From Pseudoxanthomonas sp. Root65 (GTDB lineage Bacteria; Pseudomonadota; Gammaproteobacteria; Xanthomonadales; Xanthomonadaceae), in the NCBI RefSeq assembly GCF_001427635.1, contig NZ_LMHA01000001.1, forward strand, positions 2,083,133 through 2,147,132: DNA of 64,000 nucleotides, given 5' to 3'. Of this stretch, positions 19,493 to 50,856 are shown one piece after another. The stretch's first letter is position 1; every line of letters starts with the position of its first letter. The notes below the pieces were generated by a model. It was given only the letters and a program-made list of their open reading frames with translations. It was not told the DNA's origin and did not search any database. The translations under genes and the position numbers were made by a program.

Positions 19493-20567
19493 ACTGGCTC
19501 GCTGGCTGCAGAGCCTGGAAAACTTCTTCGGCCTGTTCGGCTATCTGACGTTCCGCGGCATCCTGGCCGCGCTGACGTCGCTGGCGCTCTCGCTGTGGCT
19601 GGGCCCGGCGGTGATCCGCAAGCTCGGCCAGCTCAAGGGTGGCCAGCCGATCCGCAAGGACGGTCCGCAGTCGCACTTCTCCAAGGCCGGCACGCCGACC
19701 ATGGGCGGCGCACTGATCCTGATGACGGTGCTGCTGTCTGTGCTGCTGTGGGGCGACCTGCGCAACAAGTACGTGTGGGTGGTGCTGCTGGTGATGCTGA
19801 CGTTCGGCGCCATCGGCTGGTACGACGACTGGATCAAGATCGTCAAGCGCGATCCCAATGGCCTGAAGTCGCGCTGGAAGTACCTGCTGCAGTCGATCTT
19901 CGGCCTGGCCGCCGGCCTGTACCTGTACCTGTACGCCGACGTGCCGGCGGCCACGACGTTCTACGTGCCGTTCTTCAAGTCGATCGCGCTGCCCCTGGCG
20001 GGCATCGGCTTCGTCGCCATCGCGTACTTCTGGATCGTGGGCTTTTCCAACGCGGTCAACCTGACCGACGGCCTGGACGGGCTGGCGATCATGCCGACGG
20101 TGCTGGTGGCCTGTGCGCTGGGCGTGTTCGCCTATGCCTCGGGCAATGCGGTGTTCTCCAGCTACCTGCAAATCCCGCCCGTGCCGGGGGCGGGCGAGCT
20201 GACCATCATCTGCGCGGCGATCGCCGGCGCGGGCCTGGGCTTCCTCTGGTTCAACACCTATCCGGCGATGGTGTTCATGGGCGACATCGGCGCGCTGGCG
20301 CTGGGCGCCGTACTGGGCACCATCGCGGTGATCGTGCGCCAGGAACTGGTGCTGGTGATCATGGGCGGCATCTTCGTCATCGAAACGCTGTCGGTGATGA
20401 TCCAGGTGGCGTCGTTCAAGCTGACCGGCAAGCGCGTGTTCCGCATGGCGCCGATCCACCACCACTTCGAACTGAAGGGCTGGCCGGAGCCGCGGGTGAT
20501 CGTGCGCTTCTGGATCATCTCCGTCGTGCTGGTCCTCGTCGGCCTGGCCACGTTGAAGGTGCGCTGA
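19482..20567 (+). CDS. mraY: phospho-MurNAc-pentapeptide transferase MraY
   Basis: Transfers the MurNAc pentapeptide to undecaprenyl phosphate to make lipid I, in the inner membrane. The 361-residue, roughly ten-helix protein has the family motifs [20 protein letters not shown] (about residues 48-67), the catalytic-aspartate stretch [22 protein letters not shown] (about 191-203) and [10 protein letters not shown], with [12 protein letters not shown] near the end. The next gene is ftsW, one base overlapping; murD, which sits here in most proteobacteria, is absent. Confidence 0.97.
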
Positions 20568-38991: not shown

Positions 38992-40725
38992 TCAGTCCTT
39001 GGTGACGCGGTTGATCTCGGCCAGGCTGGTGACGCCGTTGCGCACCTTCAGCAGGGCCGACTGGCGCAGGTCCTTGATGCCTACCTTCTGCGCAGCCTCG
39101 GCGATCTGCAGCGCGTTGCCCCCTTCCAGCACGATCTCCTGGATGGCCTCGTTCATCGGCATCACCTGATAGATACCGGTACGGCCTTTGTAGCCGCTGG
39201 TGCATTCGTCGCAGCCGACGGCCTCGTAGACGGTGAAGCCGGTGGCGATCTCCGCGTCGCTGAAGCCCTCGGCCAGCAACGCCTGCGGCGGCAACTGCAC
39301 CGGTCGCTTGCACTTGGAACACAGTCGGCGCGCCAGGCGCTGGGCGATGATCAGCGTCACCGAGCTGGTGATGTTGTAAGGCGCGATGCCCATGTTCATC
39401 AGGCGGGCGATGGTCTGCGGGGCGTCGTTGGTGTGAAGAGTGGACAGCACCATGTGGCCGGTCTGCGCGGCCTTGATGGCGATCTCGGCAGTTTCCAGGT
39501 CGCGGATCTCGCCGACCATGATGATGTCCGGATCCTGGCGCAGGAAGCTGCGCAGGGCGGCCGCGAAGGTCATGCCGCGCTTGACGTTCTGCTGCACCTG
39601 GTTGACGCCGGGCAGGCGGATTTCCACCGGGTCTTCCGCCGTGGAGATATTGCGGGTCTCGTCGTTAAGAATGCCCAACGCGGTGTACAGGCTGACCGTC
39701 TTGCCAGAGCCGGTGGGGCCGGTGACCAGCACCATGCCGTAGGGCTTCTGGATGGCGTCCTCGAACAGCTTCTGCTGGTCCGCCTCGTAGCCCAGCTTGT
39801 CGATGCCCAGCTTGGCGGCGCTGCCATCCAGGATACGCAGCACCACCTTCTCGCCGAACAGTGTTGGCAGGGTGCTGACGCGGAAGTCCATCTGCTTGCT
39901 CTTGGACAGGTTCAGCTTGATGCGGCCGTCCTGCGGCACGCGCTTTTCCGCGATGTCGAGCTGTGCCATCACCTTGATGCGCGCGGAAATGCGGTCCTTG
40001 AGTTTGGTCGGGGCCTTGGCCACCTGCTTTAATATGCCGTCCACGCGCAAGCGCACGCGGTAATCGTTCTCGTAGGGCTCGAAATGGATGTCCGAGGCGC
40101 CGCGCTTGATTGCGTCCACCAGGACTTTGTTGACGAACTTGACCACGGGGGTGTCATCGCCCTTGGCGTCGACGGCTCCCTCGCTCGCGCCGTCCTCGTC
40201 CCCTGCTTCCACGTCGAGGCTTTCCAGCCCGTCGTCATCGTCGCCGAAGTTGCTCGAAAGGGCATTGGCGGCGTTCTGCCACTGGTCCAGCGTGCGTCGG
40301 AGCTGGTCCTCGTCCACCAGCACGGGTTCGATGATCAGATTGGTATGGAACTTGATCTCGTCCAAGGCTCCATGGCTGCGGGTCGGGTCGGCCACACCCA
40401 CGAACAGCTTGTTGCCGCGCTTGAACAGCGGCAGCACTTGGTGCTTCTGCAGCAGTTCCTCGCTGACAAGCTTGATGGCGCTGTGGCTGGAGTCGAACGC
40501 CTGCGCATCCAACAATGGCATGCCGAACTCCATGGCATTGGCCGCCGCCAGCTGGGGTGCCGTCACCAAGCGCTTTTCGGCAATCCATTGGGGCAGCGGC
40601 ACCTTCGCCTCGGTGGCACTTGCCATGGCGGCCCGGGCAGAGGCTTCCTCCAGGGCACCGTCCTGGACGAGCCTGCGGGCGAGCCCTGTGATGCCGACGA
40701 GATTAGGTGCAATGGCTGCGTTCAT
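38992..40725 (-). CDS. pilB: type IV pilus extension ATPase PilB
   Basis: Hexameric cytoplasmic ATPase that powers pilus assembly. The 577-residue protein has an N-terminal MshEN/T2SSE_N domain (GITGLARRLVQDGALEEASA; KHQVLPLFKRGNKLFVGVAD), an acidic linker near residues 160-190, Walker A TGPTGSGKTVSLYT (about 327-340), the Asp box around VGEIRDLETAEIAIKAAQTG and a tetracysteine zinc site (CSKCKRP and CDECTSGYKG). No pilT is next to it. It is separated from pilin gene 1 by 112 bases. Confidence 0.97.
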   Translation of the reverse strand: MNAAIAPNLVGITGLARRLVQDGALEEASARAAMASATEAKVPLPQWIAEKRLVTAPQLAAANAMEFGMPLLDAQAFDSSHSAIKLVSEELLQKHQVLPLFKRGNKLFVGVADPTRSHGALDEIKFHTNLIIEPVLVDEDQLRRTLDQWQNAANALSSNFGDDDDGLESLDVEAGDEDGASEGAVDAKGDDTPVVKFVNKVLVDAIKRGASDIHFEPYENDYRVRLRVDGILKQVAKAPTKLKDRISARIKVMAQLDIAEKRVPQDGRIKLNLSKSKQMDFRVSTLPTLFGEKVVLRILDGSAAKLGIDKLGYEADQQKLFEDAIQKPYGMVLVTGPTGSGKTVSLYTALGILNDETRNISTAEDPVEIRLPGVNQVQQNVKRGMTFAAALRSFLRQDPDIIMVGEIRDLETAEIAIKAAQTGHMVLSTLHTNDAPQTIARLMNMGIAPYNITSSVTLIIAQRLARRLCSKCKRPVQLPPQALLAEGFSDAEIATGFTVYEAVGCDECTSGYKGRTGIYQVMPMNEAIQEIVLEGGNALQIAEAAQKVGIKDLRQSALLKVRNGVTSLAEINRVTKD

Positions 40726-40837
40726 GGCATTTCAGTTCCTGCAAAAAGCGGTGAAATCGCGCGCATCGCTGCGCTAGGTCGATTGTTCGAGGGGGGCGAT
40801 GGATATCGGGGACACCGTCCTTACGTTTCCGGCGGGG

Positions 40838-41167
40838 TCACTGGAGCTGGCAGTCGCCGGTCGTCATATTGCACTGGGTTTGCCGGTTGCCCGGTTGCTG
40901 CGGGGTCCCGGTAATGTTCGCCCCCACAGCGGTGGCGTCGTCTGCGTTCGCGCAGGCCTGTTGTGGCGCAGCCTCGGGCGTGTCGCCATTACGGATTACC
41001 GCCAATGAGACGCCGGCGTAGTTTCTCATTTCCGCCAGACACGCACTCTCGGCACTGCGCGTCCGGTACCCGTTGTAGGCCGGCAGGGCGATCGCGGACA
41101 GGATGGCGATGATCGCCACGACGATCAGGATTTCGATCAATGTGAAGCCTCTTGCATCGCGGTGCAT
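40838..41167 (-). CDS. pilA: type IV pilin 1, short form
   Basis: A 109-residue pilin. The leader MHRDARG is followed by the PilD cleavage site and F(+1), Glu+5 ([20 protein letters not shown]). There are four cysteines: Cys43 at the end of the N-terminal helix (ESACLAE), 71, 98 and 105, the last two forming a likely C-terminal disulfide loop. At about 102 mature residues it is much shorter than a typical 140-160 residue type IVa pilin. ATG 41167 is preferred over an upstream ATG because it gives a normal leader. A sigma-54 promoter lies 42 bases upstream. Confidence 0.9.
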   Translation of the reverse strand: MHRDARGFTLIEILIVVAIIAILSAIALPAYNGYRTRSAESACLAEMRNYAGVSLAVIRNGDTPEAAPQQACANADDATAVGANITGTPQQPGNRQTQCNMTTGDCQLQ

Positions 41168-41208
41168 GCTGACCACCTGTCGTTGGGGTTCCCCGAGAAT
41201 GGAGAACA

Positions 41209-41224
41209 AGCAAGTAACGCGCCA
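41209..41224 (-). promoter_or_regulatory. sigma-54 promoter of pilin 1
   Basis: On the minus strand the sequence reads TGGCGCGTTACTTGCT, matching the -24 GG / -12 GC consensus TGGCRCG-N4-TTGCW at every key position. Predicted start is near 41198, giving a leader of about 30 bases. PilR-activated RpoN promoters are the known mode for pilA genes. Confidence 0.82.
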
Positions 41225-41441
41225 ACTTTAAGCGCAAACAACGTCAACACGGCGGCTCGGGGAGGCAAAAGTGTGACCGACATGCCCTGGCACGGGTGGC
41301 AGCTCAAACCTCTGGGGGGGCGATGAGAGTGGGAGCGGCGGTGTTGGACGGCTCAAGGTACCGCTCCGGGGTCCATTTGCGCTACTTGACGGGTTCCCCG
41401 GCGCGCAAGCTTCCGGCTACCCTATCGAAAAGGGGAAATTA

Positions 41442-42290
41442 ATGACCATATCCGTCATCCTTCCGGCCAAGAACGAGGCCGAGGGCTTGCGCCGTACGTT
41501 GCCCTCGCTGCGGGCACTCATGCCTGATGCGGAACTGATCGTGGTGGACGACGGTTCGACCGATGACACCGCTGGCGTTGCTGCGAACTTGGGGGCCAAG
41601 GTGTTGTCCTCTCCCTACTCAATGGGCAACGGCGCAGCAATCAAGCGCGGCGCCAGGGCCGCCAGCGGTGAAGTATTGGTATTCATGGATGCGGACGGCC
41701 AGCACGACCCTTCCTCAATCGATGGCCTGTTGGCGAAGTTGGACGAGGGCTTCGACATGGTCGTCGGCGCACGCGACTGGTCGGGGCAGGCGGGCGTGCA
41801 CCGGGGCGCGGCGAACGCCTTCTACAACTGGCTGGCCAGCCGCATGACGGGCTTCGACGTGAAGGACCTGACCTCAGGCTTCCGCGTGGTGCGGGCCGAG
41901 AAGTTCCGGGAGTTCATCCACCTGCTGCCCAATGGCTTCAGCTATCCGACCACCAGCACCATGGCGTTCTTCCGCAGCGCCTACGCGGTGGCCTATCTGC
42001 CGATTCCCGTGGCCAAGCGCCTGGGCAAGAGCCATATCCGGCCGCTCCGCGATGGCGTCCGCTTCCTGCTGATCATCTTCAAGATCGCCACGCTGTATTC
42101 GCCTTTGAAGCTGTTCGCGCCGACAAGTGCGACCTTCTTTCTCATCGGGCTTGCGTACTATGCGTATACGTTTGCGACCGATGGACGGTTCACCAATATG
42201 AGCGTGCTTCTGTTCAGCGCTGCCGTCATCGTGTTCCTGATCGGATTGATTTCGGAGCAGATCACCGCGCTGACGTATCGGAAAGACTGA
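41442..42290 (+). CDS. family 2 glycosyltransferase, polyprenyl-phosphate sugar synthase type
   Basis: A 282-residue GT2 enzyme of the DPM1/GtrB-like class. The N-terminal catalytic domain shows ISVILPAKNEAEGLRRTLPS, nucleotide-site VVDDGSTDDT (Asp36-Asp37) and the metal/acceptor motif FMDADGQHDPSSI (about residues 81-93), with DLTSGFRVVRAEKF later. Two predicted transmembrane helices near the C-terminus (about 225-245 and 253-273) match enzymes that load a single sugar onto undecaprenyl phosphate. AAAGGGGAAATTA precedes the start. It opens a five-gene plus-strand run inserted in the pil locus. The sugar is unknown. Confidence 0.85.
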   Translation: MTISVILPAKNEAEGLRRTLPSLRALMPDAELIVVDDGSTDDTAGVAANLGAKVLSSPYSMGNGAAIKRGARAASGEVLVFMDADGQHDPSSIDGLLAKLDEGFDMVVGARDWSGQAGVHRGAANAFYNWLASRMTGFDVKDLTSGFRVVRAEKFREFIHLLPNGFSYPTTSTMAFFRSAYAVAYLPIPVAKRLGKSHIRPLRDGVRFLLIIFKIATLYSPLKLFAPTSATFFLIGLAYYAYTFATDGRFTNMSVLLFSAAVIVFLIGLISEQITALTYRKD

Positions 42291-42330
42291 GCATGCCTGC
42301 TGGACAAAGACACGAGGCGGAGCGGCGCGC

Positions 42331-43122
42331 ATGAAGACCAGTCCGTTGCTTGGGGTGGTTGCTCCTGAGCTTGGTTGGGTGCCGACCCCGAGATTCCTGT
42401 TGCGCCGAGACCGCATCATGCGCTTGTTGGCCGAATCATCCCTGGGAAGGCTTGTAGAAGTGGGGTGTGGCGGGGGCTCGCTGTTGCACGAACTCGCGCA
42501 GCGCAGTGACGAGGCCACGGGGATCGAGACCTCCGCGCGCGCGCGCGCGCTGGCATCTGCCATAGCTAAGTCAGGGGATGGAAAGCAGGTGATCATTGCC
42601 GCGCCGGATCCCGTCTGGCACCAGGACCGCGAGATCGTGTGCGCCTTCGATGTGCTTGAGCACATTGAACACGATGGTGCGGCCATCGAAGAATGGGCAG
42701 GATGGCTGGTGCAAGGTGGAAGGCTCTGCCTATCCGTGCCCGCCCACCAGAGCCGATGGGGCGCGGGGGATGAGTGGGCGGGTCATTGGCGCAGATACGG
42801 ACGGCAGGACCTCAAGAACCTGCTGGTCTCGAAGGGCTTCGTCATCGAGCACATCGAATGCTATGGATTTCCACTGGGAAATCTTACCGAGTGGTATGGC
42901 GAGCAATTCTACAAGCGCGCATTGCGCGAACGGCAGGGTAGCGTCAGCAAGTCGGAGGCGACCGGCGAAAGCGGTGTCGAGAGGGACTACTACATCAGGA
43001 AGTTCAAGTGGCTGGATTCCCCGTTGGGTCACGCGCTGCTACGCCTTTCGAGCGTAGTCCAGAGCTTGGCTTCCCGCACGGACTGGGGAACGGGCTACCT
43101 CGTGCTGGCAAGGAAAGAATGA
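42331..43122 (+). CDS. class I SAM-dependent methyltransferase
   Basis: A 263-residue methyltransferase with SAM motif LVEVGCGGGSLLHELAQ (about residues 42-58), GIETSARARALASAIAKSGD, the post-motif FDVLEHIEHDGAAIEEWAGW and LVQGGRLCLSVPAHQSRWGA. The VPAHQ..WG.GDE...HWRRYG pattern is seen in methyltransferases beside glycosyltransferase genes that modify polyprenyl-linked sugars or lipids; the substrate here is not known. Its stop overlaps the next start by four bases, so it is translationally coupled to the flippase-like gene. Confidence 0.8.
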   Translation: MKTSPLLGVVAPELGWVPTPRFLLRRDRIMRLLAESSLGRLVEVGCGGGSLLHELAQRSDEATGIETSARARALASAIAKSGDGKQVIIAAPDPVWHQDREIVCAFDVLEHIEHDGAAIEEWAGWLVQGGRLCLSVPAHQSRWGAGDEWAGHWRRYGRQDLKNLLVSKGFVIEHIECYGFPLGNLTEWYGEQFYKRALRERQGSVSKSEATGESGVERDYYIRKFKWLDSPLGHALLRLSSVVQSLASRTDWGTGYLVLARKE

Positions 43123-44072
43123 GGCGGTTCTGGCGCTTTGCGGCAGGCATCCTGGCGCTGGCACTGACGGTCTATTTTTTGATCGTTGCTTCAAAGGCGC
43201 TCGATCCGGCCATGCTGCGGCAGGCCTTCGCATCCGGAAGTGTGTGGCTGGCGGTGTCCATAGCCGCAGTCCTGTACGCCTTCATCATTCCCGTCACGGG
43301 CTGGGCATGGTCCTTACTTCTGTCTGCGCGTTCCGAGTCATGGTCGCCTGCGGTGCTGTCGATGACCCTTGGCCTGTCACAGCTCGCAAAGTACATCCCA
43401 GGCAACATCGCACAGCATGCGGCGCGCGCGACCCTGGCCATGCGAGAGGGCATGGCTCCCACTTCGCTGGTTGCCACGGTGACCCAAGAGACGGTACTGG
43501 CCATAGCAGCCAGCGTGGTCGTCGGTCTCCTCGCGCTGGTGGCAAGCGGGCGCGGTTTGTCATCGCTTGGGTCCGACCATGTCAACCTACTCATGGTTTC
43601 AGCGGGGTTCCTCTGCGCTGCTGTACTACTGCTTTCGGTTTTCCGACTATCAGGACGCTATCGTCCAGGCGGCAAGGTTGCCGGCACACTTGCTGCACTC
43701 GTCGCTATGCCCGGATGGAGGGCAACGAGTGCGGCACTGTCGGCGTACGCTTTCAACTATCTTCTGATCGGTGCCGGGCTATGGTGCGTAGCGATCGCTC
43801 TGGGGGAATCCACGAGCCTGAGCTATCCCGTGGTGACCTCGGCGTTTGCGTTGTCGTGGTTGCTGGGATTCATGACGCCAGGCTCGCCAGCCGGCTTGGG
43901 CGCACGCGAGGGCATCATGCTCATGCTGCTGCAGGGCGCTGCCAGCTCCGAAAAGCTTGTGGTCTTCGTGCTGCTGGCACGCGTCGTCACCATGGTCGGT
44001 GATGTCATCAGTTTTCTCGGGGCTGCAGTCTTGCGAGCCCGAATCAAGCAGGTGGGGGCGGACAATGACTGA
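43119..44072 (+). CDS. flippase-like membrane protein (lysylphosphatidylglycerol synthase TM / UPF0104 family)
   Basis: A 317-residue membrane protein with about eight predicted helices, starting MRRFWRFAAGILALALTVYF. It has the family segment LGLSQLAKYIPGNIAQHAAR (about residues 86-105) and the C-terminal GFMTPGSPAGLGAREGIMLM. Members (AglD/YbhN-type) lack the soluble lysyl-transfer domain and are often found with GT2 genes, where a role in moving lipid-linked sugars is proposed but not proven. ATG 43119 overlaps the upstream stop; a longer frame upstream lies inside the previous gene. Confidence 0.78.
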   Translation: MRRFWRFAAGILALALTVYFLIVASKALDPAMLRQAFASGSVWLAVSIAAVLYAFIIPVTGWAWSLLLSARSESWSPAVLSMTLGLSQLAKYIPGNIAQHAARATLAMREGMAPTSLVATVTQETVLAIAASVVVGLLALVASGRGLSSLGSDHVNLLMVSAGFLCAAVLLLSVFRLSGRYRPGGKVAGTLAALVAMPGWRATSAALSAYAFNYLLIGAGLWCVAIALGESTSLSYPVVTSAFALSWLLGFMTPGSPAGLGAREGIMLMLLQGAASSEKLVVFVLLARVVTMVGDVISFLGAAVLRARIKQVGADND

Positions 44073-44901
44073 TCTTGAAGTTTCCGGAGAACGGATGATC
44101 GAAGATGCGTACGTGCGCTCCGTGGATGCCTACGTCATCTACATAATGCATACCGCCTCGTATGCTTTCGCCAAGCAGTTCTGTGCGGGAAAAGTCGTTC
44201 TGGATCTTGGCTGTGGAAGCGGCTATGGCGCGGCGCGCATAGCCGAACACGCGGAGAAGGTTCACGGCGTGGATGTCGATGGGGCAGCGGTTGCGTTTGC
44301 GCAGCAGCGCTACTCGCGCGATAACGTTTCATTTTCTCGGATTGAAGGCGGAAGGGTACTTCCGTTCGCGGACGCATCGTTTGATGTGGTGTTGTCGTTT
44401 CAGGTGATCGAACACGTCTGGGATGACGGTGGTTACTTGAGGGAAGCGCAAAGAGTGCTGAAGCCGGGAGGAGTTGTCGTCGTGGTGACGCCCGACCGCA
44501 AGCATCGGCTGCTGCCAGGCCAGCGCCCGTGGAATCGCTGGCATGTCCGCGAGTACTCCCGTGCGCAACTCGAGCACAAGGTGGGCCAGTATTTCGCTAT
44601 CGCAGCGTCGCTGAAGATGGGGGCGGCATGGGATGTGGCTGGTGTGGAGATCCGACGGTACCGGAAAACCAAATGGCTGACACTGCCCTTCACTCTGCCA
44701 ATCTTGCCTGAGATGTTGCGTCGGCGTGGACTAGATTTTCTTCATTCGCTACGCACTAGGCCAGGAAAAGTGGGTGCCGACAAGAGAATTCCCGTGGCGC
44801 AGTTCGGCTTTGACGAGAGCGCAATGTTGATCGGAGAAGAACCGCCAAACCCATTGAATCTGGTGATTGTTGGCCGAAAAGTAGATGGTGCTGAAGCGTG
44901 A
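44065..44901 (+). CDS. class I SAM-dependent methyltransferase
   Basis: A 278-residue protein with SAM motif VVLDLGCGSGYGAARIAEHA (about residues 40-59), VHGVDVDGAAVAFAQQRYSR, SFDVVLSFQVIEHVWDDGGY and VLKPGGVVVVVTPDRKHRLL. The phrase FQVIEH..DD..YL.E..RVL.PGG is typical of methyltransferases in surface-polysaccharide clusters. Its start overlaps the flippase-like gene by eight bases and its stop overlaps the GT4 gene by four. Codon use is more AT-rich than in the flanking core genes. Confidence 0.8.
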   Translation: MTDLEVSGERMIEDAYVRSVDAYVIYIMHTASYAFAKQFCAGKVVLDLGCGSGYGAARIAEHAEKVHGVDVDGAAVAFAQQRYSRDNVSFSRIEGGRVLPFADASFDVVLSFQVIEHVWDDGGYLREAQRVLKPGGVVVVVTPDRKHRLLPGQRPWNRWHVREYSRAQLEHKVGQYFAIAASLKMGAAWDVAGVEIRRYRKTKWLTLPFTLPILPEMLRRRGLDFLHSLRTRPGKVGADKRIPVAQFGFDESAMLIGEEPPNPLNLVIVGRKVDGAEA

Positions 44902-46052
44902 AGCGCCTGCTGGTCGCCGGCGTTGCCATGCGCGGAGATGGCTATCCGAACGCAGTGAACACTGTGAGACTTCTGCGGCGCAACGGGCAATGGGATGTGC
45001 GGGACCACGCCGACTGGTTGCCGGACGAGACCCGGCTGTGGCAACTGGTCCGGGGTCGTCTGCTGCCACGACTTAGTCTGATGTTGCGGCTCGGGGCGGG
45101 CGGATTCGTTCAGGCTGTTGGCCTTTGTGCGACTTTCAAGCGTGGTGATGTCGCCTACTTGCCGTATCCCGCGCCCCTTACGCTGTGGTGGTTATCCATG
45201 ATTCCAGCACGGTGGCGACCGTATTGCATGGCGGATGCCTATGTTTCGTTGTGGGATTCTATGTTCAGGGATCGTGGCAATGGAAATTCAAAGGGAGTTC
45301 TTTCGCGCGTCGTACGCTTTTTCGAGGGTAGAGCATTGCGTGCGGCTGACTTGGTGCTGGTCGATACCGAAGCGAATAAGCGTCAGATGATCTCGGATTT
45401 TTCGCTGTCGCCAGGCCAGGTGAGATCATTGCCGCTCGCGATTGATGAGCAGCTATTTCTTGGGCCACCAGTTGCTGCCCGAACTGGCGCTTTGCGGGTA
45501 CTTTTTGTCGGAACCCTGGTGCCTCTTCATGGAGTAGAGGTGGTGCTCGCCGCTTCAGATAAGCTGGCAAGCATCGAGGGCATAGAGATCCTGCTCGTTG
45601 GTGATGGCCAGCAGGGGGGATTGGTCGAAGATTTCATCAGCAAGGGCGCGCCGGCCAACTTTCGTTGGGTGCGCGAGTGGCGATCCATGAGTAGCATCGC
45701 GCGCGAGATCGAGGCTGCCGACATCTGTCTAGGCGTGTTCGGTGGAGCTGGAAAAGCGTCGCGCGTACTGCCATTCAAGCTCTACTACGCGTTGGCGGCA
45801 GGCAAGGCAGTAGTGACACAGGCTGACTATGCGTTGCCGGCTGACCGGCCACCGCTTCCGGCAATCTTTCTGACCTCGGCGGGCAATGATGATGCGGCAG
45901 AAGAGCTCGTGAGGGTGATTATGGCTCTTGCCGCTGATGCCGATGCACGGTCGACTCTAGGAGCAGAAGCGCGCATCTACTTCGAGCGACAATTATCGGC
46001 TGAGGTGATCGAGCGCGAATGGCGTGACATCCTTGATCGCGTGGGCGAGTAG
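44898..46052 (+). CDS. family 4 glycosyltransferase (GT-B fold)
   Basis: A 384-residue glycosyltransferase. The N-terminal half has LLVAGVAMRGDGYPNAVNTV; the C-terminal GT-B domain has LRVLFVGTLVPLHGVEVVLA (about residues 194-213), GIEILLVGDGQQGGLVEDF and the nucleotide-sugar-site stretch ADICLGVFGGAGKASRVLPF with LYYALAAGKAVVTQADYALP. Donor and acceptor are unknown. G+C is low for this genome (26 of 60 bases at 45241-45300). It is the last plus-strand gene of the run and converges on the GT-C gene. Confidence 0.82.
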   Translation: MKRLLVAGVAMRGDGYPNAVNTVRLLRRNGQWDVRDHADWLPDETRLWQLVRGRLLPRLSLMLRLGAGGFVQAVGLCATFKRGDVAYLPYPAPLTLWWLSMIPARWRPYCMADAYVSLWDSMFRDRGNGNSKGVLSRVVRFFEGRALRAADLVLVDTEANKRQMISDFSLSPGQVRSLPLAIDEQLFLGPPVAARTGALRVLFVGTLVPLHGVEVVLAASDKLASIEGIEILLVGDGQQGGLVEDFISKGAPANFRWVREWRSMSSIAREIEAADICLGVFGGAGKASRVLPFKLYYALAAGKAVVTQADYALPADRPPLPAIFLTSAGNDDAAEELVRVIMALAADADARSTLGAEARIYFERQLSAEVIEREWRDILDRVGE

Positions 46053-46080
46053 CTTCCGTTTTGGGAGCGGGCGATCTAGT

Positions 46081-48003
46081 TCAGTTGTTGGGTGTCTGGA
46101 CGGGGGTTGCAGGGGCAGCAAGCCTGCTAGCCACGAGTTTGTCGATTGTCCTTGCTAGATCTGGCCTGCCTTTCTCTCTCAGTTCAGCAGCAAGCTCCTG
46201 AGAATAGACATCGTAGGGTGGTGCGGCGCTTATCGCTTTGATGAAGTAAGGCATTGCCTGATCCGGCTCGGAAAGATCGTTCATGACGAAGTTTCCGATT
46301 GAGGCAACCTCAGCAGGATTCAAAGGTGCCCTCTGAACCAAGGTTGAAAGTGCTTTGAGCAACCCTTGCTTGTCCAGCTCGACGCCATTGAGCGCATGAT
46401 GAGTGAGGATTTGAGGTGCCCTGCGGTTGTCGAAACTCATGCTTACCGTCTCCAGTCTTTGCTGGAATCGGTCCCAATCCTGCTGAGTTACATCGCCGCG
46501 GAGAGTCTTCAGAACGACCAGAAGCGCGGTGCTGTTGAGCGCATACGGAGCGTTGTTTGCTCCTTGGGCGCATGCGTCGATCGCTTGGCTTAGATAGGGG
46601 TTTTCCTTCTTTGCGCCACCGCCTTCCTGGAAGTAGCTTGAACACAGCGCAATCCATGCTCGAGCTGAGTGTGGTGCGAGTTCGGTGCTCGTGTGCGCGA
46701 GCTTCAATTTTCCACTCCAGCTATGCGCACGCCATGCGGTGGCCCCGCCGAGCGCTATCAGCAGCGTAATGCAGGTGAAGGTCGCTGCGCCGCTCGGCAT
46801 CCTTATGCGCTGGCTGACATATACGAGAATACTGCCGATGGCCAGAACGGCACCTACTAACGCGAAATGATTGCGATGCTCGAAAGCGAGTTCAAGTCCC
46901 ACCACGTTGCTGGCGACGAAGTGTGCACTGAAGAACAGGAAGACACCCAAGGAAAACAAGGGCCAGCGCATGCGAAAGCGCCAAGCAGCGCCCAGCAAGC
47001 ACAGCAGCGCGACAATGGCCGGAAGCGTGGTCCATGGCTGCAGTAGGCTGCGCGACGGCTGTATCCAGTCATAGTAGAACGGCATATGTTGCGGCGCGGG
47101 CAACATGATTTGTGACAGATACAAACAGAGTACGCGGGCCTGGGTCAGCAGTCGCTCCAACGTAGAGAAATTCCGGCCTGGATACGCATCCCAGTGCCAG
47201 AAATGAGGCACCACCAGAAACAGGTAGGCCGCAGCGCCAGCGATTGCTGCGATCGTGTACCAACGGCGAAGGTTCTTGGCCAAACGCATGTCGGCTGCGC
47301 CGAAGCGCAGTACCGTCAACTCCAGAGCTAGAGTATATGCAGGTAGAAGAACGGAGTCCTCTTTGCAGCCCAAAGCTGCGAACCAGAGCATCACGGTAAG
47401 CAGCATACCCGTCCGACCAGAGCGGCCTTCAATCTGTGCCTTGCGGGCAACGAGGTAGGTCCAAAGAGCCAGAATCAGGAACAGCGTACCCATGGTCTGG
47501 ATGCGCTGTACGACATACAGTACCGATGACGCATGCAGCGGATGAGCGGCCCATGCCAGCGCGAGGACCGGGGCAGCCCAACGCACTCTTTCGGCCGCGA
47601 GTCCTGAGGCCAGCAGCAAGCTACGGAAGAACCACGCCAACATAAAAGCGGTTAGCGCATGGATGACGATGTTCGTAATTCGAAAGGTTGCCGCATCTGC
47701 GCCTTCGCCGCGCCAGTAATCTAGTGCAAAACTGAGTGTGGGCAGCACCCGCATTGAGCCAGACAACTGCGGACTGAATGCCACCTCATGCAGTGCCTCC
47801 GCATCTAGGCGGGTCAAATGCACCGCTTTGTTGTTGACGATGTTTGGGATGTCATCGAAAACAAAGGCGCCGGGCAGCCCGGGGACAAACACGATGCCCG
47901 CAAACAGTGCGACGAGACAGCTTAGGAGAAGGAAACGACCGCGGGTATGGGGCATTCGCATTCGAGTGGTTAGACGCCTTGGCCGGAATGCAGATGTTCG
48001 CAT
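46081..48003 (-). CDS. TMTC-like GT-C membrane glycosyltransferase with TPR-like tail
   Basis: A 640-residue protein with about ten or more transmembrane helices to residue 420 and a soluble helical tail (about 430-640) that looks like degenerate tetratricopeptide repeats. The first periplasmic loop, GAFVFDDIPNIVNNKAV (Asp50-Asp51), closely matches the FVxDDxxAIxxNxDV loop of TMTC O-mannosyltransferases, where the acidic pair sits in the GT-C active site; WAAHPLHASSVLYVVQRIQT also fits that family. Such enzymes use polyprenyl-phosphate sugars. It lies directly downstream of pilin 2 on the same strand. Start may instead be ATG 47961 or 47955. Confidence 0.7.
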   Translation of the reverse strand: MRTSAFRPRRLTTRMRMPHTRGRFLLLSCLVALFAGIVFVPGLPGAFVFDDIPNIVNNKAVHLTRLDAEALHEVAFSPQLSGSMRVLPTLSFALDYWRGEGADAATFRITNIVIHALTAFMLAWFFRSLLLASGLAAERVRWAAPVLALAWAAHPLHASSVLYVVQRIQTMGTLFLILALWTYLVARKAQIEGRSGRTGMLLTVMLWFAALGCKEDSVLLPAYTLALELTVLRFGAADMRLAKNLRRWYTIAAIAGAAAYLFLVVPHFWHWDAYPGRNFSTLERLLTQARVLCLYLSQIMLPAPQHMPFYYDWIQPSRSLLQPWTTLPAIVALLCLLGAAWRFRMRWPLFSLGVFLFFSAHFVASNVVGLELAFEHRNHFALVGAVLAIGSILVYVSQRIRMPSGAATFTCITLLIALGGATAWRAHSWSGKLKLAHTSTELAPHSARAWIALCSSYFQEGGGAKKENPYLSQAIDACAQGANNAPYALNSTALLVVLKTLRGDVTQQDWDRFQQRLETVSMSFDNRRAPQILTHHALNGVELDKQGLLKALSTLVQRAPLNPAEVASIGNFVMNDLSEPDQAMPYFIKAISAAPPYDVYSQELAAELREKGRPDLARTIDKLVASRLAAPATPVQTPNN

Positions 48004-48158
48004 GCCGGAGATCCTATGAGGCTAGTTTCCAGGCGCCTGACCAAAAGCAAGAGGTGCGGTATGCTTTTTGCGCTACTAATGTTATCGACGGCTTCTTTCG
48101 CAAGCACGGGAGAACGTTTAGCTATGCTTCAATCGCGGTGCGTTCGCAGGCGTCGAGC

Positions 48159-48488
48159 TTAGTTCAACGAGCAGCTTCCGGTATTCATGTCGCAGGTCGT
48201 TGCTCGGTTGCCGGGCGACTGGGGCGTCCCGCTTATATCGGTATTGATGTCTGTGAACACATCGATGCTTGTGCAGGCACCGAGAATCGGTGCGGATTGG
48301 GAAGTGTCGTTGTAAAGCGCAGCCAAGGCGAAGCTGGCGTAATTCTTAGTTTCTGCTAGGCACGCGTTCTCTGCAGATCGGATGCGATAGTTGTTGTAGG
48401 CGGGCAGCGCGATGGCCGCCAAGATGGCGATAATCGCAACCACGATCATCAATTCGATCAGCGTGAAGCCGCGTGCAGTACCGCGCAT
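48159..48488 (-). CDS. pilA: type IV pilin 2, short form
   Basis: A 109-residue pilin with leader MRGTARG, then [20 protein letters not shown] with Glu+5. Cysteines at 43, 71, 98 and 105 match pilin 1 position for position, and the C-terminal [20 protein letters not shown] resembles GTPQQPGNRQTQCNMTTGDC of pilin 1, so the two are duplicates that diverged mostly in the middle. ATG 48488 gives a normal leader. A sigma-54 promoter sits at the same distance as in pilin 1. The GT-C gene follows 155 bases downstream. Confidence 0.9.
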
Positions 48489-48529
48489 GTTGAAGTCCCC
48501 AGGCAACGATTGCCTCTGGGCGAATCAAG

Positions 48530-48545
48530 AGCAAGTAGTGGGCCA
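48530..48545 (-). promoter_or_regulatory. sigma-54 promoter of pilin 2
   Basis: The minus strand reads TGGCCCACTACTTGCT: GG at -24, TTGCT at -12, correct N4 spacing. The distance to the start codon (42 bases) is the same as for pilin 1. It could also drive the GT-C gene through readthrough. Confidence 0.75.
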
Positions 48546-48644
48546 GAAAAACGTGCAGCAGGACGTTTCTTGTATGAATCGTGATGGACGTCTCTGTACG
48601 ATGACCTTCTAAACTATGTTGTTCGCTGGCGGGGGGGGGCAGGG

Positions 48645-48677
48645 CAGAAAAAAAGCCCCTCTTCCGAGGGGCTTTCC
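48645..48677 (-). terminator. intrinsic terminator of pilin 3
   Basis: On the minus strand GGAAAGCCCCTCGGAAGAGG, then GGCTTTTTTTC, forms a GCCCCTC/GAGGGGC stem with a GGAA loop and seven T. It lies 35 bases past the pilin 3 stop and would isolate pilin 3 from pilin 2. Confidence 0.92.
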
Positions 48678-48711
48678 AACTCATCATTTGACTGGGCTGA
48701 GCCCTTTCAAA

Positions 48712-49026
48712 TTAGTTGAGCGAGCAGGTGCCCGAATCCGGGTCGCAGGCCGGGTCACGCACGCCAGGATCGGCGCTGGTGAAGGTGCCGGTGGCGCCGG
48801 CGCCCGCCGTGCAAGCGCTGGCGGTGAAGGACGGCAGGGTCATGTCAGAAACCGAAGCCGAGATGTAGGCGTTCATGTAGGCCTTGGCTTCGCCGAGGCA
48901 CGCATTCTCGGCCGAACGGATGCGGTAGTTGTTGTACGCCGGCAGCGCGATGGCGGCCAGGATGGCGATGATGGCGACGACGATCATCAGTTCGATCAGG
49001 GTGAAGCCCTGGGCGTTCTTCTTCAT
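48712..49026 (-). CDS. pilA: type IV pilin 3, short form (probable major pilin)
   Basis: A 104-residue pilin with leader MKKNAQG, then [20 protein letters not shown] and Glu+5. The helix end [18 protein letters not shown] is nearly identical to pilin 2, but the globular part differs; cysteines fall in NACLG, SACTA, DPACDP and SGTCSLN. AAAGGGGAAATACC precedes the start. It has its own sigma-54 promoter with a long leader, a strong terminator and GC-rich codon use like core genes, which suggests the highly expressed, resident pilin. Confidence 0.9.
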
Positions 49027-49134
49027 GGTATTTCCCCTTTCAGGATTGGCTTGATGGTTGTGGGACACAAGCCCCGTGTCCCTACATGGACCGTGGGCGC
49101 CGCGTACAGCGATACGACGCGTGCAGGGATGTAG

Positions 49135-49150
49135 AGCAGGATGCGTGCCA
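49135..49150 (-). promoter_or_regulatory. sigma-54 promoter of pilin 3
   Basis: The minus strand reads TGGCACGCATCCTGCT, with the full TGGCACG -24 block and TGCT at -12. The start site would be near 49124, about 97 bases before the ATG. It is the best -24 match of the three pilin promoters. Confidence 0.85.
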
Positions 49151-49201
49151 ACTTCTGATACCCCCAGCGATTCCCCCACACTTCCCCGGGAGGAAACCCT
49201 G

Positions 49202-49331
49202 ACACCGAAGTCGGGCGGGACTATCGCATCATTCTTTTGCGTTGTGTATCGGGAACTGTGTCCATTCCCGGATCGTGTCACACATTTGAGAATGGCCATT
49301 CCGCAGCCGCGTGCGCCAATTCCCTGACACA
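49202..49331 (-). promoter_or_regulatory. cluster of GTGTC motifs, candidate PilR sites
   Basis: GTGTC occurs on the minus strand at 49202-49206 and 49327-49331 and on the plus strand at 49259-49263 and 49276-49280, all 50-180 bases upstream of the pilin 3 promoter. PilR of Pseudomonas is reported to bind repeated (C/G)TGTC motifs upstream of pilA. The position fits an enhancer; the assignment is by motif only. Confidence 0.4.
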
Positions 49332-49352
49332 CCTTTGGTTACATGACCCGTC

Positions 49353-49371
49353 ACGTCATAAAGTGACGTGA
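49353..49371. repeat. perfect inverted repeat between pilR and pilin 3
   Basis: CACGTCA-TAAAG-TGACGTG has 7-base perfect arms, nested within a larger imperfect repeat (TGACCC at 49345 with GGGTCA near 49396). It lies 85 bases past the pilR stop. It may be a pilR termination hairpin or a regulator site; no U-run follows. Confidence 0.5.
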
Positions 49372-49455
49372 TGCGTCACCCTCGGGTCACTGTGCGATGC
49401 GGCGCACGCTTGTGGCGAGACATATATATGCGTGGGGCGGAAGACTCTGCGCCGC

Positions 49456-50856
<1,401 letters not shown>

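Follow-up and report, generated by a model that had tools for sequence, protein, structure and literature searches.

In the haloarchaeal AglJ route the glycan is carried on a lipid monophosphate, and both the pgl locus of Neisseria and O-antigen loci have fixed ends that enclose variable glycan genes and a flippase, with glycans on undecaprenyl pyrophosphate (Und-PP) and PglL or WaaL as transferases. In Pseudomonas aeruginosa, the glycosyltransferase gene lies directly downstream of the pilin that is modified, an arrangement connected with phage defence; TfpW adds D-arabinofuranose and TfpO adds O-antigen units, and pilin glycans have been proposed as a shield against phages and immune recognition (PMC11841053). 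TfpO is WaaL-like, and a 2025 review gives TfpO, TfpM, PglS and PglL as the classes of O-oligosaccharyltransferases (O-OTases), the word TMTC being absent from the text of that review (PMC12645811). The animal proteins TMTC1-4 carry DD, KE, DW and E-R residues in extracytoplasmic loops together with an extracytoplasmic tetratricopeptide repeat (TPR) tail, and their activity was still termed undemonstrated in a 2021 abstract (PMC7801869). According to two further papers, pilA alleles of Xanthomonas are exchanged horizontally (PMC4235730), and X. vesicatoria BNM 214/216 has an EamA transporter and two glycosyltransferases beside a pilin (PMC10333488). The present study concerns a 64-kb stretch of Pseudoxanthomonas sp. 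Root65 (the window, 64,000 nucleotides) and, within it, six genes at 41442..48003 lying among the pilin genes between pilB and pilR. We consider it likely that they form part of a locus that is devoted to glycosylating pilin, recombines between strains and encodes a TMTC-like transferase, because gene content, a private flippase nearly everywhere, the predicted fold of the transferase and the linkage to pilin fit together.

Gene content and order of the locus

Gene content and gene order are directly observed, and the features of the locus are the following.

41442..42290, plus strand: GT2, probable undecaprenyl-phosphate sugar synthase, conserved pilB-side end piece (PF00535, 1.6e-31)
42331..43122, plus strand: methyltransferase 1, MT1 (PF13489, 6.7e-13)
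43119..44072, plus strand: flippase candidate, LPG_synthase_TM / UPF0104 (PF03706, 60 bits, cut-off 33)
44065..44901, plus strand: methyltransferase 2, MT2 (PF08241, 5.7e-24)
44898..46052, plus strand: GT4 glycosyltransferase (PF13692, 1.2e-05, 26.0 bits, just under the cut-off of 27)
46081..47955, minus strand, reading frame open to 48003: TMTC-like GT-C-A transferase with C-terminal TPR domain, here GT-C (by fold prediction)
48159..48488, minus strand: pilin 2, best acceptor candidate, just upstream of GT-C on the same strand (PF07963, 3.2e-09)
48530..48545, minus strand: -24/-12 site of sigma-54 type preceding pilin 2 and GT-C (one mismatch to TGGCACN5TTGCW)
48648..48677, minus strand: terminator-like hairpin in the gap between pilin 3 and pilin 2 (12-bp stem and T run in the RNA fold)
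48712..49026, minus strand: pilin 3 (PF07963, 9e-11), with its own sigma-54-type site at 49135-49150
40838..41167, minus strand: pilin 1 (PF07963, 3e-10), with its own sigma-54-type site at 41209-41224
38992..40725, minus strand: pilB, left anchor of the locus (PF00437, 2.1e-149)
49456..50856, minus strand: presumably pilR, right anchor in Pseudoxanthomonas (an open reading frame call, named from its sequence and its position beside pilS)

The initial annotation had placed six genes here, and all of them are open at their positions in the open reading frame (ORF) list of the window; four families (GT2, MT1, MT2 and the flippase) are backed by Pfam matches above cut-off, the GT4 stays below its cut-off, also in its NCBIfam match to a WcaI-like model (43.6 bits), and GT-C has no Pfam match. 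The most probable start of GT-C is 47955, where its homologues begin. The order on the minus strand is pilS, pilR, pilin 3, pilin 2, GT-C, the plus-strand run, pilin 1, pilB, pilC, pilD and coaE, and all three pilins carry N_methyl motifs in Pfam. The plus-strand run GT2-MT1-flippase-MT2-GT4 is tightly packed and operon-like, with overlaps of 4-8 nt (4 nt for MT1/flippase and for MT2/GT4; flippase and MT2 also overlap). The picture of six genes interrupting a minus-strand pil locus is therefore right for these five, which lie on the other strand from the pil genes; GT-C is encoded on the strand of pilin 2. The closest named loci are from Pseudoxanthomonas (sucC 99-100% and pilB 93-94% identical for L003 and L006).

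The polyprenyl-phosphate type proposed for the GT2 is borne out by PF00535 and by its structural relatives in the PDB, namely ArnC (9bhc), DPMS (5mlz) and sll0501 (5eke); by this kinship to ArnC, DPMS and GtrB it is probably a polyprenyl-phosphate sugar synthase. Its best NCBIfam match is AglJ, with 108.7 bits against a cut-off of 325, and it is therefore not a member of AglJ. Matches to this GT2 were found in 77/159 genomes, at most 500 bp from pilB in 70 of the 74 with both genes on one contig and at most 3 kb from it in the remaining 4; the other three genomes, including G049, whose genes are on different contigs, were not comparable.

A predicted TMTC-like transferase adjacent to pilin

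Structure prediction (pLDDT 90) makes GT-C a transferase of the GT-C-A class, similar to PMT, STT3 and ArnT and extended by a TPR tail in the periplasm; this predicted architecture is that of the animal TMTC O-mannosyltransferases. The fold assignment comes from a second structure comparison (VIA), whose fold list includes ArnT, PMT and AglB, together with the motifs. The predicted structure has the GT-C-A membrane fold of TMTC-type enzymes, and D50 D51, K214 E215, D312, E375 and R377 fall within or border on predicted periplasmic loops 1, 3, 4 and 5, the placement they have in TMTCs. The DD of motif M1 (D50 D51, predicted loop 38-103) is invariant in 33 diverse homologues, as are R85, R167, E375 and R377. 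The KE of M4 (loop 3) and the DW of M5 (loop 4) are also present in the window protein; K214, E215 and D312 are invariant among 74 nearer homologues, and in the wider set of 33 K214 is invariant, D312 is kept in at least 90%, E215 is merely the majority residue and the W of DW is not kept. The C-terminal TPR domain would be extracytoplasmic, since the 11-span reading of the model and the charge pattern place it in the periplasm; PDB TPR matches fall at profile positions ~420-640, and Pfam TPR_19 was found in 8 of the 33 homologues and not in the window protein. The motifs M2 (SHKSYRP), M3 (RxD) and M7 (ERxxY) do not occur as written in the window GT-C, which has QRxQ in place of RxD and EHRN in place of ERxxY, and for this reason we call the enzyme TMTC-like and do not file it as a TMTC. 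The TMTC-like label given at first inspection thus stands on predicted fold, DD/KE/DW/E-R residues and TPR tail, and fails on these three strings.

Identity with the classical O-OTases (TfpO, TfpM, PglS or PglL) was considered and rejected: no such domain is present in the window GT-C or in the 33 homologues, where no WaaL-like or O-antigen ligase domain was found by Pfam at E 0.01.

Queried with GT-C, 146 of 297 Lysobacteraceae genomes (source genome included), from 35/54 genera, gave matches at E 0.001, and a GT-C profile found matches in 110 of 369 genomes of the class (88/272 genera) at E 1e-20, a sample that includes at least 4 Lysobacteraceae, two of them with matches. The gene stands next to a pilin, as expected of a pilin-dedicated transferase. 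Among the best 29 other Lysobacteraceae loci, a same-strand pilin is located directly upstream in 26, and in the remaining three (L024, L032 and L036) GT-C follows a tandem GT-C copy; among the best 10 loci from other families of the class, the pilin is directly upstream in 9, and L198 has its GT-C behind a tandem one. These adjacency loci (L022-L050, L193-L202) overlap in genome with the set of pilB regions described below. As a separate observation, Arenimonas daejeonensis NZ_CP042453.1 (L021:8155-16525) carries a cassette of the type seen in the window, with GT-C, MT2 and GT4 matches in pieces that may reflect tandem copies, a frameshift or sequencing error.

Promoters and a probable shared transcript

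Pili of Xanthomonas are under PilR/RpoN control. In the window, each of the three pilins has a one-mismatch sigma-54-type site 75-142 bp upstream of its processing motif, and GT-C and GT2 have none of their own. In a census of the window and 140 regions (at most 2 mismatches, core kept), such sites precede 159/201 pilins, 2/103 GT-Cs, 2/79 GT2-like genes, 27/141 pilB, perhaps owing to neighbouring pilins, and 35/1364 unlabelled genes. It is important to note that the total of two-mismatch matches across the window is that of chance (33 against 34.8 expected), so that only their placement before pilins is informative; three of the five one-mismatch sites in the window precede pilins. In the RNA fold, a G+C-rich hairpin with a T run lies 3' of pilin 3, which a simple terminator scan did not list, and the gap between pilin 2 and GT-C has a weaker A+T-rich hairpin and no strong terminator that we could see. 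A scan of 40700-49500 for terminators and sigma-70 promoters gave no more matches than shuffled sequence. Because of the pilin-side site, the lack of a GT-C site and the weak hairpin between the two genes, GT-C is most likely transcribed together with pilin 2 from the sigma-54 promoter of the latter; there may be attenuation at the A+T-rich hairpin.

Exchange between strains

Co-occurrence and exchange are likewise observed directly. The initial annotation proposed a comparison of the pilB-pilR interval across the family, and in this comparison the block is present, absent or replaced among relatives. The eight closest same-genus regions (pilB at 89% or more), with flanking genes 89-100% identical, comprise three empty sites, four with other cassettes (L052, L053, L056 and L057) and one of the same type. 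The empty sites (L051, L054 and L055; pilB 92-95%, pilR 96-97%, sucC 97-99%) hold two pilins in 1.6-1.8 kb compared with 8.7 kb here, and L051 keeps a relative of pilin 1, which is the best match of its pilB-side pilin. The same five-gene cassette is found in L058 (MT1 84%, flippase 78%, MT2 80%, GT4 59%), the sole such case in the genus set. Exchange of the block between strains is thus upheld by empty sites and other cassettes in close relatives, and we refine the varying unit, judging from these sequences, to cassette, GT-C and pilin 2, with GT2 as a conserved end piece. As regards the possibility that the six genes occur together far from pilins, two were traced: GT2, near pilB as reported above, and the flippase, whose window-type homologues (at least 40% identity) are in pil loci in 5/5 genomes, the window's included, weaker ones (33% or less) being found both in pil loci and elsewhere.

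Base composition had first suggested acquisition, from 26 G+C of 60 at 45241-45300 against 39 of 60 at 20221-20280. Both counts are exact, but the former is an extreme pick, since only 0.28% of 60-mers in the window are as low. The 6.6-kb block (G+C 0.591) is nonetheless the poorest of its size in the window: 443 overlapping windows of the same size outside it are all at least 0.652, with a mean of 0.687. G+C at third codon positions (GC3) is 0.61-0.72 from MT1 through pilin 2, compared with 0.82 in GT2, 0.78 in pilin 1 and 0.88 in pilin 3, and pilin 2 has the lowest G+C of the genes measured (0.553). Overall G+C is less telling than GC3, because neighbouring pilC also has 0.592, with a GC3 of 0.84. 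In 76 relatives the drop is only mild, GT-C being below pilB in just 51 (means 0.633 and 0.652). For these two reasons low G+C alone is weak evidence and was rejected as proof of acquisition.

GT-C also varies together with its pilin. Median distances over 14 same-genus loci are 0.15 for pilB, 0.14 for pilR, 0.74 for GT-C and 0.80 for the adjacent pilin; over 76 loci the distance of GT-C correlates with that of the adjacent pilin with a partial r of 0.58 given pilB (0/999 permutations), and with pilB with r 0.20. In 43 loci the values are 0.79 for GT-C/adjacent pilin, 0.59 for GT2/pilB and 0.31 for GT-C/pilB. These results bear on the idea that GT-C acts as a general O-glycosyltransferase on many periplasmic targets, pilin being only the most closely linked of them. 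Although PglL-type enzymes behave in this way, tight linkage is described for TfpO, TfpM and PglS but is not widespread for PglL (PMC12645811), and here the adjacency in 26/29 and 9/10 loci, the pilin-side sigma-54 site and the tracking of the adjacent pilin make a general enzyme quite unlikely.

The variable locus across Lysobacteraceae

We mapped the stretches upstream of pilB in 140 genomes, which with the window make 141 regions, using our own ORF calls and clustering. The genomes are those with strong pilB matches, 34/34 other same-genus matches and 106 of the remaining family matches (145 family matches in all, 7 of them from this genus); as no stretch exceeded 20 kb, some loci are truncated and may have been scored as absent. 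By tblastn (GT2 at 65% or more; named loci L002-L021 excluded, several of which duplicate other regions), GT2 and GT-C occur together in 70 regions, GT-C only in 9 (one of which, L098, is without GT-C in the gene map), GT2 only in 0 and neither in 62; within the genus (n=35) these numbers are 14, 4, 0 and 17.

Between pilB and GT-C there are, apart from GT2, 2-15 called genes (median 7, pilins counted where present), and the cargo without pilins and GT2 amounts to 440 proteins of 175 families in 64 loci. The representatives scanned are largely glycosyltransferases, methyltransferases and sugar-nucleotide enzymes, and one family scan covered 25 of 85 families among the matches listed. Examples are GT4, GT2, methyltransferase, DegT aminotransferase, GDP-mannose dehydratase and dTDP-sugar enzymes, as well as Asn_synthase, acetyl-/acyltransferases, LicD and Glyphos_transf. 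Family models assign flippases of UPF0104 type to 23 of the 64 loci, of Wzx type to 22 and of ABC type to 4, and in each of the remaining 15 a single other protein has at least 5 predicted spans. Among these 15, Pfam identifies Wzx in five loci (f214, f224 and f582) and UPF0104-type proteins in four (f553, f565 and f70, the last two below cut-off), and names nothing in six (f195, f322, f325, f599 and f617), so that a flippase is recognisable in 58/64. Exactly one cargo protein with at least 4 predicted spans or a flippase-model match is present in 61/64 loci; L111, L126 and L156 have a second multi-span protein (families f212 and f129), in each case an acyltransferase. A motif search of 2670 gene calls, run without a positive control, found no phosphoglycosyl-transferase initiator in the cargo.

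It could be argued that GT-C adds only the single sugar derived from GT2, in the manner of TfpW and possibly repeatedly, while the other cargo builds something else or acts after transfer. The GT2 does fall among monosaccharide-P-polyprenol synthases, ArnT and PMT relatives, which use such donors, are in the fold list, and L059 and L060 have GT-C without any cassette; nevertheless, the recognisable flippases, many of Wzx type, suit oligosaccharides, and the cargo includes GT4s and GT2s of cytoplasmic type, so we regard this as unlikely. The cargo families are also those of O-antigen loci and ArnT itself is in the fold list, which would suit a cassette for units of lipopolysaccharide (LPS) or exopolysaccharide, with GT-C as an ArnT-like modifier of lipid A or core and the pil locus as a mere recombination hotspot. 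This is very improbable, given that GT-C homologues follow pilins in the class-wide loci examined, that GT-C has a predicted TPR tail and ArnT is not known to have one, and that in some loci lacking this GT-C a different GT-C-like protein is encoded close to the pilin. By Pfam, eight scanned proteins of this kind comprise one GT87 above cut-off, one weak PMT_2, one with TPR only and five without a match.

Several observations concern individual loci. The GT87 protein is L136:12934-15027, and the PMT_2-like one (L061:1807-3516, below cut-off) is encoded two genes downstream of the pilin. In five GT-C-negative loci (L077, L079, L103, L120 and L157), a pilin-side trio is made up of a membrane protein of ~641 aa that Pfam does not match, an amine-oxidase-like protein and a GtrA protein. 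Family f19, found at L014:16270-19299 and in 16 further members of the interval, comprises multi-span proteins of ~1009 aa that contain a spermine-synthase domain and are encoded beside pilins or between pilin and pilR. L057 (nucleotidyltransferase, HAD and Glyphos_transf) and L097 (LicD) suggest phospho-substituents on some pilus glycans.

Proposed mechanism and its significance

From these data we infer the shared transcript, the substrates, the flipping step, the acceptor and the benefit of the pathway. The GT2 would load the first sugar on undecaprenyl phosphate, the GT4 and the two methyltransferases would extend and decorate the glycan in the cytoplasm, and the UPF0104-type flippase would turn the lipid-linked glycan to the periplasm. 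There, the GT-C-A enzyme of TMTC-like type, whose message is probably the sigma-54 transcript that also encodes pilin 2, would transfer it to Ser/Thr of pilin 2 and perhaps of pilins 1 and 3, its TPR tail holding the pilin during transfer. Strains would swap the cargo that separates the fixed GT2 from the GT-C/pilin pair, hence pilus glycans would differ by strain, and from the constant GT2 a constant first sugar and variable outer sugars are predicted. The lipid-linked route to pilin in the initial annotation thus retains the kinship of the GT2, a flippase-type protein and a GT-C-A enzyme behind pilin 2, its glycosylation step staying conditional, and its choice of the flanking pilins as acceptors is narrowed to pilin 2, directly upstream of GT-C, as the best candidate. 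By analogy with P. aeruginosa, evasion of pilus phages is a plausible driver. We hold only tentatively the more specific proposal that undecaprenyl monophosphate carries complete oligosaccharides during their assembly, which the conserved GT2 begins in the logic of haloarchaeal AglJ, that UPF0104, Wzx or ABC flippases serve interchangeably to turn them over, and that a TMTC-like GT-C, holding its substrate with a TPR arm, attaches them to type IV pilin.

Several points weigh against a dedicated pilin-glycosylation locus. That pilins are glycosylated, at which acceptor site, and that GT-C is active as a transferase is what we infer, and by eye no diagnostic acceptor motif was seen in the pilin tails. 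Foldseek by itself returned mainly TPR proteins for GT-C, none under E 0.001, the M2, M3 and M7 strings are altered, and the GT4 has a weak family match. Nine loci have GT-C without this GT2, and in 6/64 only an unnamed multi-span protein stands where a flippase is expected. The Fisher and permutation tests ignore relatedness, and the coupling of GT-C to pilin may reflect physical hitch-hiking: where a second pilin lies upstream (32 loci), its partial r is 0.77, compared with 0.86 for the adjacent one, so linkage may explain part of the coupling.

If the proposed pathway is right, it would add a further, class-wide kind of pilin transferase and a hypervariable locus in Lysobacteraceae, in which the sugar coat of the pilus is swapped as if it were clothing, relatives having different kits or none at the same site. 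With a starter and a transferase type that are fixed and middle genes that are freely exchanged, the diversity of pilus coats could be read off genome sequences. A TMTC-type enzyme would become available in a bacterium, where work is easy and the acceptor is small and known, and would provide a new transferase with which sugars could be put on proteins.

Comparison with known systems

In titles and the starts of abstracts we found neither a TMTC-like transferase beside a pilin nor this locus, which may have been described earlier elsewhere. Like TfpO and TfpW, the transferase gene lies directly behind a pilin, but here it encodes a TMTC-like enzyme that ends in a TPR tail, and the interval from pilB to the pilin holds a private glycan cassette that includes a flippase; TfpW was compared by description only. 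With TMTC1-4, GT-C shares the predicted GT-C-A fold, DD/KE/DW/E-R in matching loops and the TPR tail, and differs in a transferase part without Pfam match, in M2, M3 and M7, and in being bacterial and pilin-linked. Points in common with the AglJ route are the best NCBIfam match of the GT2 and AglB in the fold list of GT-C, but the score is 109 against 325 and both lipid and acceptor are others. The pgl and O-antigen loci have fixed ends, variable glycan genes and a flippase in common with this locus but differ in their Und-PP glycans and in PglL/WaaL, and they are not known to be linked to a pilin operon. The variation at pilB-pilA-pilC in Xanthomonas shares the exchange of pilA, and the available parts of those reports describe no TMTC-like GT-C, conserved GT2 or pilin-glycan cassette there.

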